Source: Phycisphaerales bacterium
Lineage (GTDB): Bacteria; Planctomycetota; Phycisphaerae; Phycisphaerales; SM1A02
DNA: 10,186 bases
Direction: 5' to 3'
Assembly (NCBI GenBank): GCA_003520025.1
Contig: DOVP01000298.1
Location: 1 to 10,186 of the forward strand
Every line of letters begins with the position of its first letter. Positions within the stretch are counted from its first letter, which is position 1. This document shows, in pieces, positions 1-5,175 of the stretch. Both the position numbers and the translations under genes were made by a program. The notes under the pieces are model-generated. The model did no database searches, was not told the origin of the DNA, and saw only the letters and a program-made list of their open reading frames with translations.

Positions 1-971
1 GTGGGCCAGCGTGAACGGGTGATACCGACGGATGCCCCAACCGCGAGCAGTTGTTTCATCACGTCCGCATGGCAGTGTCGCGCCGCCTCCTGCATGGGTG
101 ACCAGCCATCGGGGAGGGATGCGTCGGGGTCTGCATTATGATCGAGCAGGAGCGTAACGCACGAGGTACACCCACTCCGGGCCGCCGCCATGAGCGCGGT
201 CCATCCGTGGATCGTCGCGCGATCGGCAGTAGCGCCCGCGTCGAGCAGGAGTTTGAGACAGTCGGCGTGACCGCGAAGCGCGGCAAAGTACACACCGTCG
301 TGACCAGTATGATCCGTCGCGAGCAGGTCCGGGTCATGGCGAAGGAGTTCCTGCAGCACCGAGGGGGATCCCCACCACGCGGCCGCCATGAGCGGCGTCA
401 CCCCATCGATCGTGCCGGCATGTGGATCGGCACCGTGTTCGATCAACAGGCGAGCGACCGATGGACAGGCACCCTGACACGTGGCGAGCAATGGTGTCAT
501 GCCACGGATTCCGCGACGGATGCTGACCGAAGCACCGTGATTGACGAGCACCTGCGTTACATCGAGTCGGCAGGCAACCGCCGCGTTCCACAGTGGAGGG
601 CGCGCCCCGGGCGGCCCATTCGGCACCGCGCCAGACTTGAGGAGAACTCTCACCATGGCCACGTCGCCGCGAGCAGCGGCAACTCCCAGTGGACTGACCC
701 GCAGGCCATCCTGTAATACCGGCCCAACCGCATTCGGGTTTCCACCCTCTTCTTCGAGGATGCGGGCGAGCGTCGCCATCTCGCCACTGGCAGCGGCACG
801 TATCAGACCACTCAACCTCTCATGCTCAACCTGCCCGACCTTCAGAATCCAGTTCGCCGTAGGCAGCGCGAGGGCCGGCACCTCCACCGGAGGTGGAGAC
901 GCCGCCATCGTCCCAGAGATCAGGAGTACCAGTACTCCCCGTCCAAACCATGTCAGTCCCAACCTAGGCAC
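1..971 (-). CDS. Secreted ankyrin-repeat protein (3' end beyond the window)
   Basis: Read on the minus strand the frame is open from 971 through base 1, at least 323 codons. I chose the GTG at 971-969 because a clear AGGAG lies at 983-979 with a 7-nt spacer, and because a signal peptide follows at once: a basic start (PRLGLTWFGRG), a hydrophobic core (VLVLLISG) and a TMAAS cleavage region at about residue 23. From about residue 53 there are eight ankyrin-type repeats of about 33 residues, with the usual TPL..AA..G....V..LL..GAD pattern. Examples are VTPLMAAAWWGSPSVLQELL and WTALMAAARSGCTSCVTLLL. Ankyrin stacks bind other proteins; the partner is unknown. The signal peptide suggests an exported protein rather than a cytoplasmic one. 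The end of the protein is not visible. The gene diverges from the gene at 1090. Confidence 0.87.
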   Translation of the reverse strand, partial: MPRLGLTWFGRGVLVLLISGTMAASPPPVEVPALALPTANWILKVGQVEHERLSGLIRAAASGEMATLARILEEEGGNPNAVGPVLQDGLRVSPLGVAAARGDVAMVRVLLKSGAVPNGPPGARPPLWNAAVACRLDVTQVLVNHGASVSIRRGIRGMTPLLATCQGACPSVARLLIEHGADPHAGTIDGVTPLMAAAWWGSPSVLQELLRHDPDLLATDHTGHDGVYFAALRGHADCLKLLLDAGATADRATIHGWTALMAAARSGCTSCVTLLLDHNADPDASLPDGWSPMQEAARHCHADVMKQLLAVGASVGITRSRWP

Positions 972-984
972 AAAAATGCTCCTG

Positions 985-1000
985 AAAAAAGGCCTTTTTT
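985..1000. repeat. Perfect 16-bp AT palindrome in the ankyrin gene leader
   Basis: AAAAAAGGCCTTTTTT is a perfect palindrome one base upstream of the AGGAG ribosome binding site (979-983) of the minus-strand ankyrin gene. As RNA it could form only a weak A-U hairpin with a GGCC loop. As DNA it could be a protein site or a bent A-tract element. No function can be assigned from sequence alone. Confidence 0.5.
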
Positions 1001-1089
1001 GAAGCCTCGAAGGGCTCACTGGGCAGTCTATCGATTCCCCCCGAAACATCCCGGAAGGCAGCAGCATTGTCCATGTTGGAGGTTCCCGA

Positions 1090-1464
1090 ATGCCACATAT
1101 CAGGCCAGCCAGCGACAACACGAATCCCACCCACTCGGATGACGCCGATCGGGCGCTCGCCCGGGTGTGGCCGGTCGTGTCGGTCAATTGGGTCGATGCC
1201 GAGGCCCGGGGTGGCCCTGGATGGGAAGATCCGGAGGACATGGTGGAATTCGCGCTGCGACCGCTCGCCACGGTGCACACGGTTGGGCTGCTGATTCATG
1301 AGTGTGAGCAGTTCGTTGCGTTGACCGATTCCCGGGCCCCGGACCAGGTTGGCGCGGTGCAGAAGATCCCGAAAGCATGGATTACCTCGATGGAGTTCAT
1401 GGTGCCCACAAAGGAAGAAGAAGTACCACCGACGCTGCCGATGGATGGATCTCGCGCCGGGTGA
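1090..1464 (+). CDS. Small conserved hypothetical protein, phage-like family
   Basis: The ATG at 1090 has a GGAGG at 1078-1082 with a 7-nt spacer, so the start is well supported; the product is 124 aa. The core (residues about 26-100) reads VVSVNWVDAEARGGPGWEDP, then a P-L-A-x-V-H-T-V-G-L-L-I-H stretch, then IPKAWITSMEFM. I recall this layout (a V.W.DA...GW start, a VGYL.H centre and an IPK/IPR end) from small proteins common in phages and prophage-like islands, with no known function. The C-terminal tail is acidic and proline-rich (PTKEEEVPPTLP) and looks disordered. No signal peptide or membrane segment is present. It diverges from the ankyrin gene across 118 bp, and its transcript would run into the hairpin at 1627-1658. 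The family assignment is from memory of the pattern. Confidence 0.72.
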   Translation: MPHIRPASDNTNPTHSDDADRALARVWPVVSVNWVDAEARGGPGWEDPEDMVEFALRPLATVHTVGLLIHECEQFVALTDSRAPDQVGAVQKIPKAWITSMEFMVPTKEEEVPPTLPMDGSRAG

Positions 1465-1620: not shown

Positions 1621-1658
1621 AAAAACGCAAGGACGAGTCCTAACGGACTCGTCCTTGC
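1621..1658 (-). terminator. Strong intrinsic terminator hairpin, probably usable from both sides
   Basis: A perfect 14-bp stem (1627-1640 with 1645-1658, GCAAGGACGAGTCC) closes a 4-base loop at 1641-1644. On the minus strand the stem is followed by G and five T (1626-1621), the classic layout for ending the non-coding RNA that comes from the right. On the plus strand it is followed by TTCTTCTCT (1659-1667), a weaker tract that could also stop transcription of the 1090-1464 gene. The hairpin therefore sits between two converging transcription units. Confidence 0.85.
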
Positions 1659-1674
1659 TTCTTCTCTCCTCCCC

Positions 1675-1701
1675 CGAGTGATGGGGGCCCCCCCACACTC
1701 G
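1675..1701 (-). other. Hairpin between the closing stem and the terminator of the RNA
   Basis: CGAGTG (1675-1680) pairs with CACTCG (1696-1701), and inside it a G-run faces a C-run, giving about 11 bp with a one-base bulge. It lies four bases outside the closing stem arm (1706-1732) and 16 bases before the terminator stem. It is probably a separate 3' domain of the RNA. Confidence 0.6.
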
Positions 1702-1705
1702 AGGA

Positions 1706-1732
1706 TGTCGCTGACTGTTCGACCGGGTCGGA
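1706..1732 (-). repeat. 3' arm of the long closing stem (inverted copy of 2653-2679)
   Basis: This 27-base segment matches the reverse complement of 2653-2679 at 25 of 27 positions; the mismatches are at positions 9 and 23 of the arm. The shared core is CTGTTCGACCGGG. It would hold the ends of the RNA together. The alternative reading is a terminal inverted repeat of a non-autonomous mobile element. I see no flanking target duplication: GAGGA precedes 1706 and ACGTG follows 2679. Confidence 0.75.
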
Positions 1733-2364
1733 GCCGGGCCGATCGTCATTGCAGTGTCTTTCGACTCCTGCGATGATCGGTGCTCGCGGTGATCTCGGCA
1801 GGCGACCCTGCCTTACCCGGTGCACATCGGGCGTGTCGGTGTCCTTGGAATGGCTGCGTCTCCCCTCGCGATGCCTCGCTTCCTGGGGACGTTCTTGCAT
1901 GTACGCTCCATTCCCTTTGAGCGATGCCTCTGCGTGACCTGACATTCGGTGCTCCCGTGCCTCCCGTCGGCTGCACGGATCTCAGGTCGCTCGGCATCAG
2001 ATCCTCCTCGCGGTCTTGGCAAGACTTCCACAGACCTTGACGCTGCACACGAATGTGCGTTGTCGCTCCACGTCCGGTGTGGGGCATCGGTCTGCTGCTC
2101 GACTTGGTCGCGTGAGGTGGTTCACAACATCTTTTTGCTCAGGCCGCCGGAACCGCCGGCCTGGGCAAATCATGCTGCCCTCAAACTCCTCGTCCTCTGC
2201 TTCCTTCGTCTCGTGCAGGACACGATTCGATCTTCGCATGGCGAGGTTTGGACTGTCACAATCATCGGCTCACGTGCTCGCTGCCATACGCTTTTGAGGG
2301 CGTGGGCATCGTGCTCGCTTTCTTGAGTCGTTGATCCGTTGCTGGTGGTCACCAATGTCGCCTT

Positions 2365-2408
2365 CCCGCTTTCGCGGGCATGTACCGAAGCACAAGTGCC
2401 GAAGCACT
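2365..2408 (-). other. Three back-to-back tetraloop hairpins within the RNA
   Basis: Hairpin one, 2365-2378: CCCGC/GCGGG closing a GAAA loop on the minus strand. Hairpin two, 2381-2394: five pairs closing C(UUCG)G, including a G-U pair that exists only on the minus strand (A-C on plus). Hairpin three, 2395-2408: AGUGC(UUCG)GCACU, directly abutting hairpin two. Three standard RNA tetraloops in 44 bases strongly suggest a folded RNA and set its strand. Confidence 0.8.
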
Positions 2409-2652
2409 CCTCGGGAGCATTGGTCCTGCCGGCAACCATCCGGTTCTGCAGTGCATTGCGCGGTTTCTCCGCGGTTTGCCCGAATGTGACTGTGAAGAAC
2501 GGGTGCTTCCCGGTATCCGGTGATCCGCATCGTGGAATGTCGGGAAACCACGCGCGTCGAGTTCGGTCTTTCGACCTCTCTCCGTTCCAGATCGGGGGCG
2601 TTCTTCGCCGTCCGACACGTACTTCTCCGCTTTTCAAAGAGCCTTGCGCCAG

Positions 2653-2679
2653 TCCGCCCCGGTCGAACAGGCAGCGACA
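2653..2679 (-). repeat. 5' arm of the long closing stem (inverted copy of 1706-1732)
   Basis: This is the partner arm of 1706-1732, 25 of 27 positions complementary. It begins about three bases after the transcription start predicted from the promoter at 2717-2689, as expected for the first helix of a structured RNA. Confidence 0.75.
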
Positions 2680-2688
2680 ACGTGTGTA

Positions 2689-2717
2689 GTAATACGATGG
2701 GCAACTCCACCTTGCAA
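2689..2717 (-). promoter_or_regulatory. Sigma70-like promoter for the structured RNA
   Basis: On the minus strand, TTGCAA (2717-2712, 4 of 6 to TTGACA) and TATTAC (2694-2689, 4 of 6 to TATAAT) are separated by exactly 17 bases. Transcription would begin near 2682. Each hexamer is only a moderate match. The spacing and the placement at the base of the closing stem are what support it. Confidence 0.5.
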
Positions 2718-2731
2718 GCGACCACCAGATC

Positions 2732-2771
2732 GTGGACGAGTCGGTGGAGAACTCGGTGGACAAATGGTGGA
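2732..2771. repeat. Four GTGGA repeats at 12/12/11-bp spacing
   Basis: GTGGA occurs at 2732, 2744, 2756 and 2767. The middle two units are nearly identical over 12 bases (GTGGAGAACTCG, GTGGACAAATG). An 8-bp inverted repeat, GGAGAACT (2746-2753) and AGTTCTCC (2783-2790), overlaps the array. It lies between the SYLF gene stop (2792) and the RNA promoter, so it could be a phased regulator site upstream of that promoter, or a poor terminator for the SYLF gene. There is no T-run. Confidence 0.4.
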
Positions 2772-2791
2772 GTCGTTGCCCCAGTTCTCCG

Positions 2792-3450: not shown

Positions 3451-5175
3451 ATGGTGAATGCCATGATGGCCATGCTGGAACCCTTGATCAGGCAGATCAC
3501 AACGCTTGCAGATGAACTGGACAGCACCTGCAAAAACGATGCCGAGCGTTTACTCCATGCAGCTGCCGTCTACATGAGATCCTGCGGATCTGAGCAACCG
3601 GAGTTGGAGCGATTGATCCCAGACCTTGGCAGCATGCTCCGCTGTGAAGGAACAACAGGCAAGGCCGCTCGGCAGCGAGCGGGTGCCTATTACACGCCGC
3701 CGATGCTCGTTGGTTTCATCCTCGATCACACGCTTGATCTCTGGTTGGCCGAAAATCCAGATTGCGAACCAACCGTACTTGATCCTTCCTGCGGCACGGG
3801 CCGGTTCCTGCTCGCTGCCGGACGACGCTTGGTGCGGCGCCATATCAGCCGCACCGGTGAGTCCGAATCGGCGGCATGGCGACATGTCGGCCCGCTCCTG
3901 CTGGGCTTGGACAGCGATCAGATCGCCACTGCGTGGCTTGCGGGGCGTATTCAATCGCTCGCCGGAGGTGACCACGCCGCCGCGACCGGTATTCGAACGA
4001 CCGACGCGCTCGGCGAGGAAGGCATCCGAAACTGTCGCGCCGACATTGTCGTGGGAAATCCTCCATTTGGCAGCCCGCTGAAACAAGCATCGGACGCCGA
4101 GGCGGCCCGCCGCGCGATGAAGGCGTTGGGTGGGCGGGTCGGCCCGTACACCGACCTTGCCGCGATCTTTCTCGGGCATGCCCGAGCCGCCGTGAACGAT
4201 GGTGGGTTTCTAGCAATGGTGCAGCCACTATCGGTGTTGGCATCCCGCGATGCGGATCAGGTTCGAGCGGCACTCCTGGAAACCTGCACACCCACTGCGG
4301 CGTGGGCCAGCGGGAAACGCATTTTCGATGCCGATGTATTCACATGCGCGGTGGTGTTCAAAAAAGGACCATCGCCCCGGGAGTGCCACGTGAGCAGATT
4401 CCGTGATCTGCCTGCACATGCATGTGGATCCGCCACGATCGGCACTGGTGATCGATCCTGGTCGCCGCTGGCCACCGCTGCGATGGGATTCCCGGATGTG
4501 CCGGAGTTTCAGGATGCGGGCACCATCGGTGATATCGCCGAAGCCACGGCTGACTTTCGAGATCAGTATTACGGGCTGAAACAAGCCATCATCGAATGTG
4601 GCACCTCGCTTGAGGATGGAGTTGCTCCGGTTGTCACGACGGGCGTGCTTGACTCGGCCCGCTGCTATTGGGGGGACCGTCCGATTCGGCTGTTCGGCCA
4701 GTTGTGGAATCGTCCCGGCATTGTGATTTCCTCGCTTGACACATCGATGCAGGAATGGGCCACGGCTCGGTTGGTACCCAAACTCATGCTTCCGACACAG
4801 ACCCGCACCCTTGAGCCGGTACTCGACCTCGATGGGCGCTGGCTTCCGAGTGTGCCGATCATCTCGATCACGGCGCGCCGCTTGAGCGACCTGCCCCGTA
4901 TCGCCGCCGTGCTCGCCTGTCCACTGATATCCCTGCTCGCCCTGCATCGGTGCCTCGGAACTGCTCGCAGTCCCAAGGCCATCAAACTCTCGGCAAGCGA
5001 TGTGCTGTCGCTTCCAACGCCGGCAGATGAAGCGGCGTGGGAGGCTGGTGCCCGCGCCTTCGTGTTGGCCCAGCAGACTCAGGATCAGGCGGAGCGTGAT
5101 GCATGCCTACTGCAGTGCAGCGAACACATGCTGACCGCCTATCGCGTCGAGCATGGTGCAATCGAGTCTGGCTGA
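3451..5175 (+). CDS. Orphan N6-adenine DNA methyltransferase, Eco57I/HsdM-like
   Basis: The product is 574 aa. It transfers a methyl group from S-adenosylmethionine to adenine in DNA. Visible in order: an N-terminal helical part; the lead-in RQRAGAYYTPPMLVGFILDH (74-93), typical of this class; motif I DPSCGTGRFL (111-120), the SAM-binding loop; LGLDSD (151-156), a likely motif II acidic position; and the catalytic motif IV NPPFG (203-207). The C-terminal half carries a candidate target-recognition segment ending in AIKLSASDVLSLP (510-522), as in type IIG and type I-related enzymes. It lacks an N-terminal nuclease domain, and there is no restriction, specificity or helicase gene next to it. 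It therefore acts alone, or its partners lie elsewhere. The start is uncertain: ATG at 3451 has only a weak GGTGG upstream, and ATGs at 3463, 3466 and 3472 are in frame. Confidence 0.88.
   Translation: MVNAMMAMLEPLIRQITTLADELDSTCKNDAERLLHAAAVYMRSCGSEQPELERLIPDLGSMLRCEGTTGKAARQRAGAYYTPPMLVGFILDHTLDLWLAENPDCEPTVLDPSCGTGRFLLAAGRRLVRRHISRTGESESAAWRHVGPLLLGLDSDQIATAWLAGRIQSLAGGDHAAATGIRTTDALGEEGIRNCRADIVVGNPPFGSPLKQASDAEAARRAMKALGGRVGPYTDLAAIFLGHARAAVNDGGFLAMVQPLSVLASRDADQVRAALLETCTPTAAWASGKRIFDADVFTCAVVFKKGPSPRECHVSRFRDLPAHACGSATIGTGDRSWSPLATAAMGFPDVPEFQDAGTIGDIAEATADFRDQYYGLKQAIIECGTSLEDGVAPVVTTGVLDSARCYWGDRPIRLFGQLWNRPGIVISSLDTSMQEWATARLVPKLMLPTQTRTLEPVLDLDGRWLPSVPIISITARRLSDLPRIAAVLACPLISLLALHRCLGTARSPKAIKLSASDVLSLPTPADEAAWEAGARAFVLAQQTQDQAERDACLLQCSEHMLTAYRVEHGAIESG

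Follow-up and report, generated by a model that had tools for sequence, protein, structure and literature searches.

The window analysed here (the whole stretch of DNA, 10,186 nt in length) carries on its minus strand what is, as judged from sequence, a single-copy, free-standing gene that specifies a large ornate non-coding RNA. Comparison of homologous copies shows the predicted limits of the gene, its conserved fold, its non-coding status, and a putative promoter and terminator of its own. The predicted transcript is approximately 1.06 kb long, with the 5′ end near 2682-2684. The features of the locus are as follows, in the direction of transcription.

1621..2682, minus strand: large structured non-coding RNA gene (fold, homologs, covariation, and non-coding pattern)
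2731..2774, minus strand: four TCCACC/TCCACG iterons of the TTNTNCAC type, spaced at 11-12 bp, ahead of the -35 box (sequence and oriented enrichment)
2712..2717, minus strand: putative -35 hexamer TTGCAA (sequence; similar in alignment A1)
2689..2694, minus strand: putative -10 hexamer TATTAC, 17 bp from the -35 hexamer (sequence; similar in A1)
2649..2678, minus strand: 5′ strand of P1, the end-to-end helix (Helix 1, 28 pairs, 98.2% of cells paired)
2631..2642, minus strand: boxA-type element GCUCUUUGAAAA, resembling the UCUUUGRCAAGUGA found in 16S leaders of related genomes
2612..2618, minus strand: 5′ strand of hub helix H3, GUGUCGG (A1 and cross-family test)
2180..2185, minus strand: 5′ strand of helix HE, partner 1916-1921 (five inner pairs covary across families)
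2124..2178, minus strand: helix HC (2172-2178 with 2124-2130) and its enclosed hairpin (A1 and cross-family test)
1916..1921, minus strand: 3′ strand of HE (cross-family test)
1833..1839, minus strand: 3′ strand of H3, CCGACAC (A1 and cross-family test)
1815..1832, minus strand: hairpin with the palindrome GUGCAC in its loop (1820-1825), followed by a conserved GGGUAAG (14 of 14 copies)
1797..1812, minus strand: covarying hairpin GGCAGG-GUCG-CCUGCC (Helix 31, both-side change in 3 of 6 pairs)
1782..1794, minus strand: trailer-side strand that can pair with boxA, GAUCACCGCGAGC (duplex test)
1707..1736, minus strand: 3′ strand of P1 (A1 covariation analysis)
1621..1658, minus strand: predicted intrinsic terminator, a 14-bp hairpin with a T-run (terminator scan; conserved in A1)

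An earlier note on this DNA had proposed a promoter with a 17-bp spacer, which is found as TTGCAA-17-TATTAC at 2717-2689. Promoter-like hexamers with equal spacing precede six of the seven genus copies, the six being those that are long enough. A sigma-70 scan of the window did not list this promoter, which has 8 of 12 matches and no T at its last position. The proposed 14-bp terminator hairpin was recovered by the terminator scan at 1658-1627. Our terminator script found a hairpin with a T-run in 12 of the 14 copies, of which that of G029 is doubtful, and none in G048 and G069, yet stems with T-runs are visible in both of these sequences. The minus strand, also called previously, was chosen because of the direction of the promoter, terminator, and boxA element. 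The minus-strand consensus holds 162 G-U cells versus 31 A-C cells, but this test is partial and partly circular because a model built for the plus strand favors the plus strand as well (124 versus 37). The alifold energy is lower on the minus strand (-258.7) than on the plus strand (-231.9).

The view that no protein gene lies here holds up. None of the nine open reading frames inside or overlapping the RNA has a Pfam family above the cut-off (two sub-threshold matches had E values of 0.017 and 0.071). In five pairwise comparisons of copies, substitutions are spread evenly over the three codon phases, 68 of 73 indel runs have lengths not divisible by 3, and no codon-type substitution was found. 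A cmscan search of the window against Rfam at E values up to 5 left the RNA unmatched and returned only two chance snoRNA matches, both outside it, while a search of 14 sources (11 with the RNA) at the gathering score gave only three tRNAs. The Rfam models of rRNA, group I and II introns, RNase P, tmRNA, SRP RNA, GOLLD, ROOL, and OLE do not match the RNA, which agrees with the earlier description of an unrecognized family. The homologs likewise support the interpretation as a large structured minus-strand RNA.

The minus strand folds with a minimum free energy (MFE) of -479.3 kcal/mol versus -401.3 ± 8.4 for 40 dinucleotide shuffles (z, -9.3; z without the terminator, -5.6). The plus strand folds well too (MFE, -486.0; z, -7.4), which counts against the strand call. 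Six hairpins ending in GAAA or UUCG had been claimed for the minus strand only; in the MFE structures, GNRA or UUCG tetraloops are indeed absent from the plus strand, but the minus strand contains five rather than six. All 13 copies with a 5′ end fold better than their shuffles (z, -5.2 to -12.6; 24 shuffles each). Alignment A1 comprises seven genus sequences, that of G004 being without the 5′ end, and its consensus contains 249 pairs. Standard pairs make up 94.9% of 1,663 cells versus 86.7% in shuffled alignments and 36 to 41% with partners slid, and both-side changes occur in 89 of the 249 pairs versus a shuffled mean of 39.6 and 12 to 22 in slid versions, an excess over slid versions that arises partly because the structure was derived from A1 itself. 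The observed values were matched by none of 500 shuffles, all of which leave the relatedness of the sequences in place. Covarying pairs, which the proposal of a structured RNA called for, are thus abundant. The end-to-end helix, previously drawn over 27 positions, appears as 28 consensus pairs (2678-2649 with 1736-1707), 3 of them with both-side changes, and the HC hairpin apex, GGCGGUUCCGGC, is unchanged in all seven genus copies.

Three helices were compared across families, each in 13 of the 14 copies. Canonical pairs account for 95.6% of H3 (7 pairs; 87.7% shuffled), 100% of the five inner pairs of HE (90.7% shuffled), and 100% of HC (7 pairs; 88.9% shuffled), and none of 2,000 shuffles was as high as observed for any of them, in a comparison that favors pairing because the helix blocks were anchored by eye. 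G056 is missing from the HE and HC sets, where it was unplaceable, and G004 has no 5′ end. The outermost HE pair, excluded from the test, is non-canonical in G040, G069, and G096. This is almost certainly a real structured RNA family, and it displays the hallmarks of a large ornate RNA, being long and non-coding with extensive conserved, covarying structure.

A BLAST search of 61 genomes placed the RNA in seven of nine genus genomes, its own included (G000-G005 and G008), and returned short matches in G028, G029, and G040. Two covariance models (R1 and R2) of a 63- to 67-nt core near the 3′ end extended the search. Thresholds were passed by 46 of 301 and 36 of 400 genomes of the order, 13 of 347 of the class, and 16 of 392 of the phylum; the 36 of 400 matched at E values up to 0.001, and 14 of them were judged real. 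These 14 carriers, all scoring at least 36.6 bits, belong to families f1, f5, and f6 of one order, and the G069 copy was confirmed by reading its locus. No match above 31 bits was found outside the order in the class and phylum sets, both of which overlap the order set. Two sets of weak loci were read by eye, 13 (3 of them the RNA) and 16 (only L100 the RNA), out of a larger number of weak matches; the rejected ones contain no other motifs of the RNA and are mostly coding-DNA- or terminator-like. A motif regular expression run on weak loci carries no evidence because it missed L100 too. A pattern scan of genome contigs gave 17 stretches, 11 of which are the RNA, in records labeled as Phycisphaerales, Phycisphaeraceae, Phycisphaera, and Planctomycetota metagenome-assembled genomes and as Planctomycetales bacterium ZRK34; the other six (L073, L074, L076, L082, L083, and L085) are not the RNA. 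ZRK34 is a carrier and a named strain with a complete genome, and a literature search for its transcriptome found no paper naming it. A search for large complex bacterial RNAs described from Planctomycetota found none, the available portion of PMC2864571 naming Planctomycetes once. Two genus copies (L033 of G003 and L035 of G005) have an RNA body approximately 115 to 170 nt longer than the other complete genus copies (1,111 and 1,086 nt from P1 end to P1 end versus 938 to 973 nt), with the insertions in the variable middle.

The gene order methylase, Ysc84, RNA, hypothetical protein, ankyrin protein is common to G000, G001, G002, G003, and G008; G005 gave no Ysc84 match, and the G004 contig starts within the RNA. 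The hypothetical protein (1090-1464) shows 72 to 90% identity among six carriers and matches no Pfam family. The ankyrin-repeat reading frame of the window (3-1280), as listed, begins antisense to the hypothetical gene, and its true start is therefore probably further on. The gene at 3451-5175 encodes an N6 DNA methylase (N6_Mtase above the cut-off, Eco57I below it); the other seven proteins scanned have no restriction enzyme family match. With a Ysc84-type gene just upstream on the same strand, the RNA might be taken for a regulatory or attenuating leader of a neighboring gene. This is highly improbable, because the RNA follows the Ysc84-type gene with its own predicted promoter and terminator, its downstream neighbor is convergent, and the neighbors change between families. 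Ysc84 was also rejected as a fixed partner: it lies on other contigs in G028, G040, G048, G069, and G096 and was not found in G029 and G005. The best of three Ysc84 copies in G056 (C1:4121470-4121985) lies approximately 1.3 kb downstream of the RNA core, on the other side from that in the window's genus.

Two members of the genus, G006 and G007, have no RNA sequence by blastn (E below 1e-3), and the distance from Ysc84 to the hypothetical gene is 73 and 334 bp in them versus 1,196 to 1,410 bp in G000, G001, G002, G003, and G008. These two keep the neighbors without it, so that the RNA forms a discrete unit dispensable to part of the genus. Such clean absence, together with neighbors that vary by family and a patchy presence in the order (14 of 400 genomes accepted as carriers), would also be expected of a mobile or selfish RNA element moving between loci, with the empty sites reflecting insertion. 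We regard this as improbable: the RNA has its own predicted promoter and terminator, matches no Rfam intron family, occurs once in its own genome (84% complete), and has neighbors common to the genus copies compared, and searches found no similar phage or plasmid DNA and no exact core-pattern match in viral contigs.

The array upstream of the promoter recurs with the RNA. Thirteen upstream stretches (185 to 190 bp each) contain 17 forward and no reverse copies of TTNTNCAC, against a background of 0.035 per stretch (305 kb of G056). At least one copy is present in 10 of the 13, and none in G001, G005, and G028. Of four genomes scanned with the pattern TTTTCCACN{8,32}TTNTNCAC, three (G040, G056, and G096) have one match each, always upstream of the RNA, and the fourth, G029, has none; the backward control gave four matches in G056 and none in the other genomes. 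The TTNTNCAC iterons resemble DnaA boxes. A role of the array as oriC is not supported in G056, where the RNA (4.12 Mb) is far from the switch in sampled GC skew, which flips sign between 2.15 and 2.45 Mb apart from a single outlier at 1.85 Mb. Of the two dnaA-type genes of G056, one is located at 2.44 Mb.

A UCUUUGA-like strand lies near the 5′ end in all 13 copies with that part, with the variants CAUUGA in G028 and CCUUGA in G029 and G048. The copies of the window's genus match the boxA element loosely (GCUCUUUGAAAAG), and the G069 RNA carries TCTTTGRCAAGTGA letter for letter. The element is shared with the 16S leaders of families f5 and f6. In G056 (f5), the 16S leader reads UUCUUUGACAAGUGAACAG and the trailer can pair around the boxA element, which, as we read it, sits inside the leader-trailer helix. 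A total of 65 of 121 order genomes contain TCTTTGRCAAGTGA (one match in the backward control); 30 of its loci were fetched and 20 scanned, and small-subunit rRNA starts downstream in 14 of the 20, all of family f6. In the window's family, f1, no 16S gene was found in G000, G001, and G003, and G008 yielded just a 3′ portion of one. A second boxA-like match in the window's own genome was set aside as coding-DNA-like, with no Rfam match.

Other occurrences of the pattern are recorded here for their own sake. Two genomes of genus g41 (G053 and G111) contain TCTTTGRCAAGTGA 33 and 38 times, often near contig ends; in the two loci read, L192 and L191, it precedes AGCAGGGGCG, and neither locus yielded an rRNA. 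These copies could be either a dispersed repeat or another boxA-led family. In L206 (G119), eight clustered tRNA genes surround the element. Inverted copies approximately 1.97 kb apart occur in G079 (C1:2842038-2844024) and G085 (C1:215777-217761 and 719892-721876), the arrangement to be expected if they were the leader and trailer flanking a 16S gene.

The boxA strand of the RNA can pair with its own 3′ region directly after GAGAUC. For 9 of the 13 leader copies, near-identical genus members being dropped, cognate leader-trailer duplexes average -18.0 kcal/mol versus -14.2 for non-cognate ones (P = 5e-5; 20,000 permutations). The own trailer is the best partner for five of the nine leaders (G028, G040, G048, G056, and G096), and some foreign trailers outscore it for G000, G008, G029, and G069. 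Paired with their own trailers, the leaders of the six genus copies get no further than -12 to -15 kcal/mol, and RNAalifold puts the genus boxA into a local hairpin instead. According to the available parts of PMC10250234 and PMC12691694, rRNA boxA binds NusB and rRNA leader-trailer helices are cut by RNase III. Production of our RNA by a boxA-type route is likely. A narrower alternative is a large structured RNA in which boxA is only a shared antitermination signal, with neither rRNA-like processing nor self-association. Antitermination complexes serve CRISPR arrays too (PMC12691694, in the part available), and four of nine leaders pair better with foreign trailers, as such an RNA would allow; the cognate advantage over the nine representatives and P1, a 28-pair end helix with compensatory change, weigh against it, and we consider it unlikely.

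The palindrome GUGCAC occupies the core-hairpin loop in all 14 copies; models R1 and R2 were trained with it included. It occurs only once in 9 of 13 RNAs counted, three times in G008, and twice in G040, G048, and G096. Because the loop is self-complementary, an RNA with no second copy could pair it fully only with another molecule, which suggests kissing dimers; the absence of covariation for this contact follows from GUGCAC never varying. The sequence may instead be kept for protein binding. In the available text of PMC12286853, OLE, ROOL, and GOLLD are reported as homo-oligomers with kissing loops, and the kissing loops of GOLLD and OLE as self-pairing. We put the chance that this RNA self-associates at a little under even. 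The second GUGCAC of L037, L072, and L080 (G040, G096, and G048, respectively) lies in a shared GUGCACARGCCGGC, 156 to 182 nt before the core loop, and cis or trans pairing between the two palindromes is conceivable.

The explanation that we find probable is a large ornate RNA of an uncatalogued family, with rRNA-type antitermination and processing, perhaps oligomeric and perhaps with a structural or scaffold role. That the RNA would be produced like ribosomal RNA has support in its boxA element and pairing ends; that it may be a multi-domain, self-associating structural or scaffold RNA has weaker support. On this explanation, the RNA would use the boxA-type element near its 5′ end to recruit NusB and S10 to the polymerase, which could then finish approximately 1 kb of untranslated RNA without Rho termination. 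The ends of the RNA, boxA strand included, would pair as a leader-trailer-like stem to be trimmed by an RNase III-type enzyme, and the mature RNA would close into a multi-domain particle, self-associating via its exposed GUGCAC kissing loop as OLE, ROOL, and GOLLD do via their own loops and serving as a structural or scaffold component. Switching of the gene would fall to a regulator that reads the TTNTNCAC array. The existence of G006 and G007 without the RNA counts against this explanation. The boldest version, in which a giant non-ribosomal RNA made on the rRNA production line, switched by the array, and assembled through GUGCAC into a symmetric particle represents a new self-assembling class, is conceivable but doubtful.

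New relative to the earlier note are the likeness to pre-16S rRNA in boxA and in the putative leader-trailer pairing, the array before the promoter, the loop with GUGCAC, and the empty sites. Few known bacterial RNAs match this one in size and complexity, and the roles of those that do are open; this family would tie large ornate RNAs to the route of rRNA antitermination and processing. With natural carriers and non-carriers in one genus, plus the complete genome of ZRK34, its production, assembly, and need are directly testable.

The RNA resembles GOLLD, ROOL, and OLE in its size class, many covarying helices, lack of coding, and stand-alone gene, and differs from them in matching no Rfam model and in occurring in other bacteria. 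The rRNA-type boxA and the putative leader-trailer pairing described here are unreported for those three in the available text of PMC12286853. With the pre-16S rRNA of related bacteria it shares the UCUUUGRCAAGUGA boxA and a leader strand that would pair with a trailer beyond the body, whereas its body matches no rRNA model. BoxA is also used in antitermination on CRISPR arrays. These provide a parallel for antitermination on a long untranslated non-rRNA transcript (PMC12691694, as far as the available text goes), a process only inferred for our RNA. Unlike CRISPR arrays, this is one structured RNA with no repeat array. The dimerization initiation site of HIV-1 is a hairpin loop with the same GUGCAC palindrome, an unrelated element that offers an analogy for the putative kissing-loop mechanism only.
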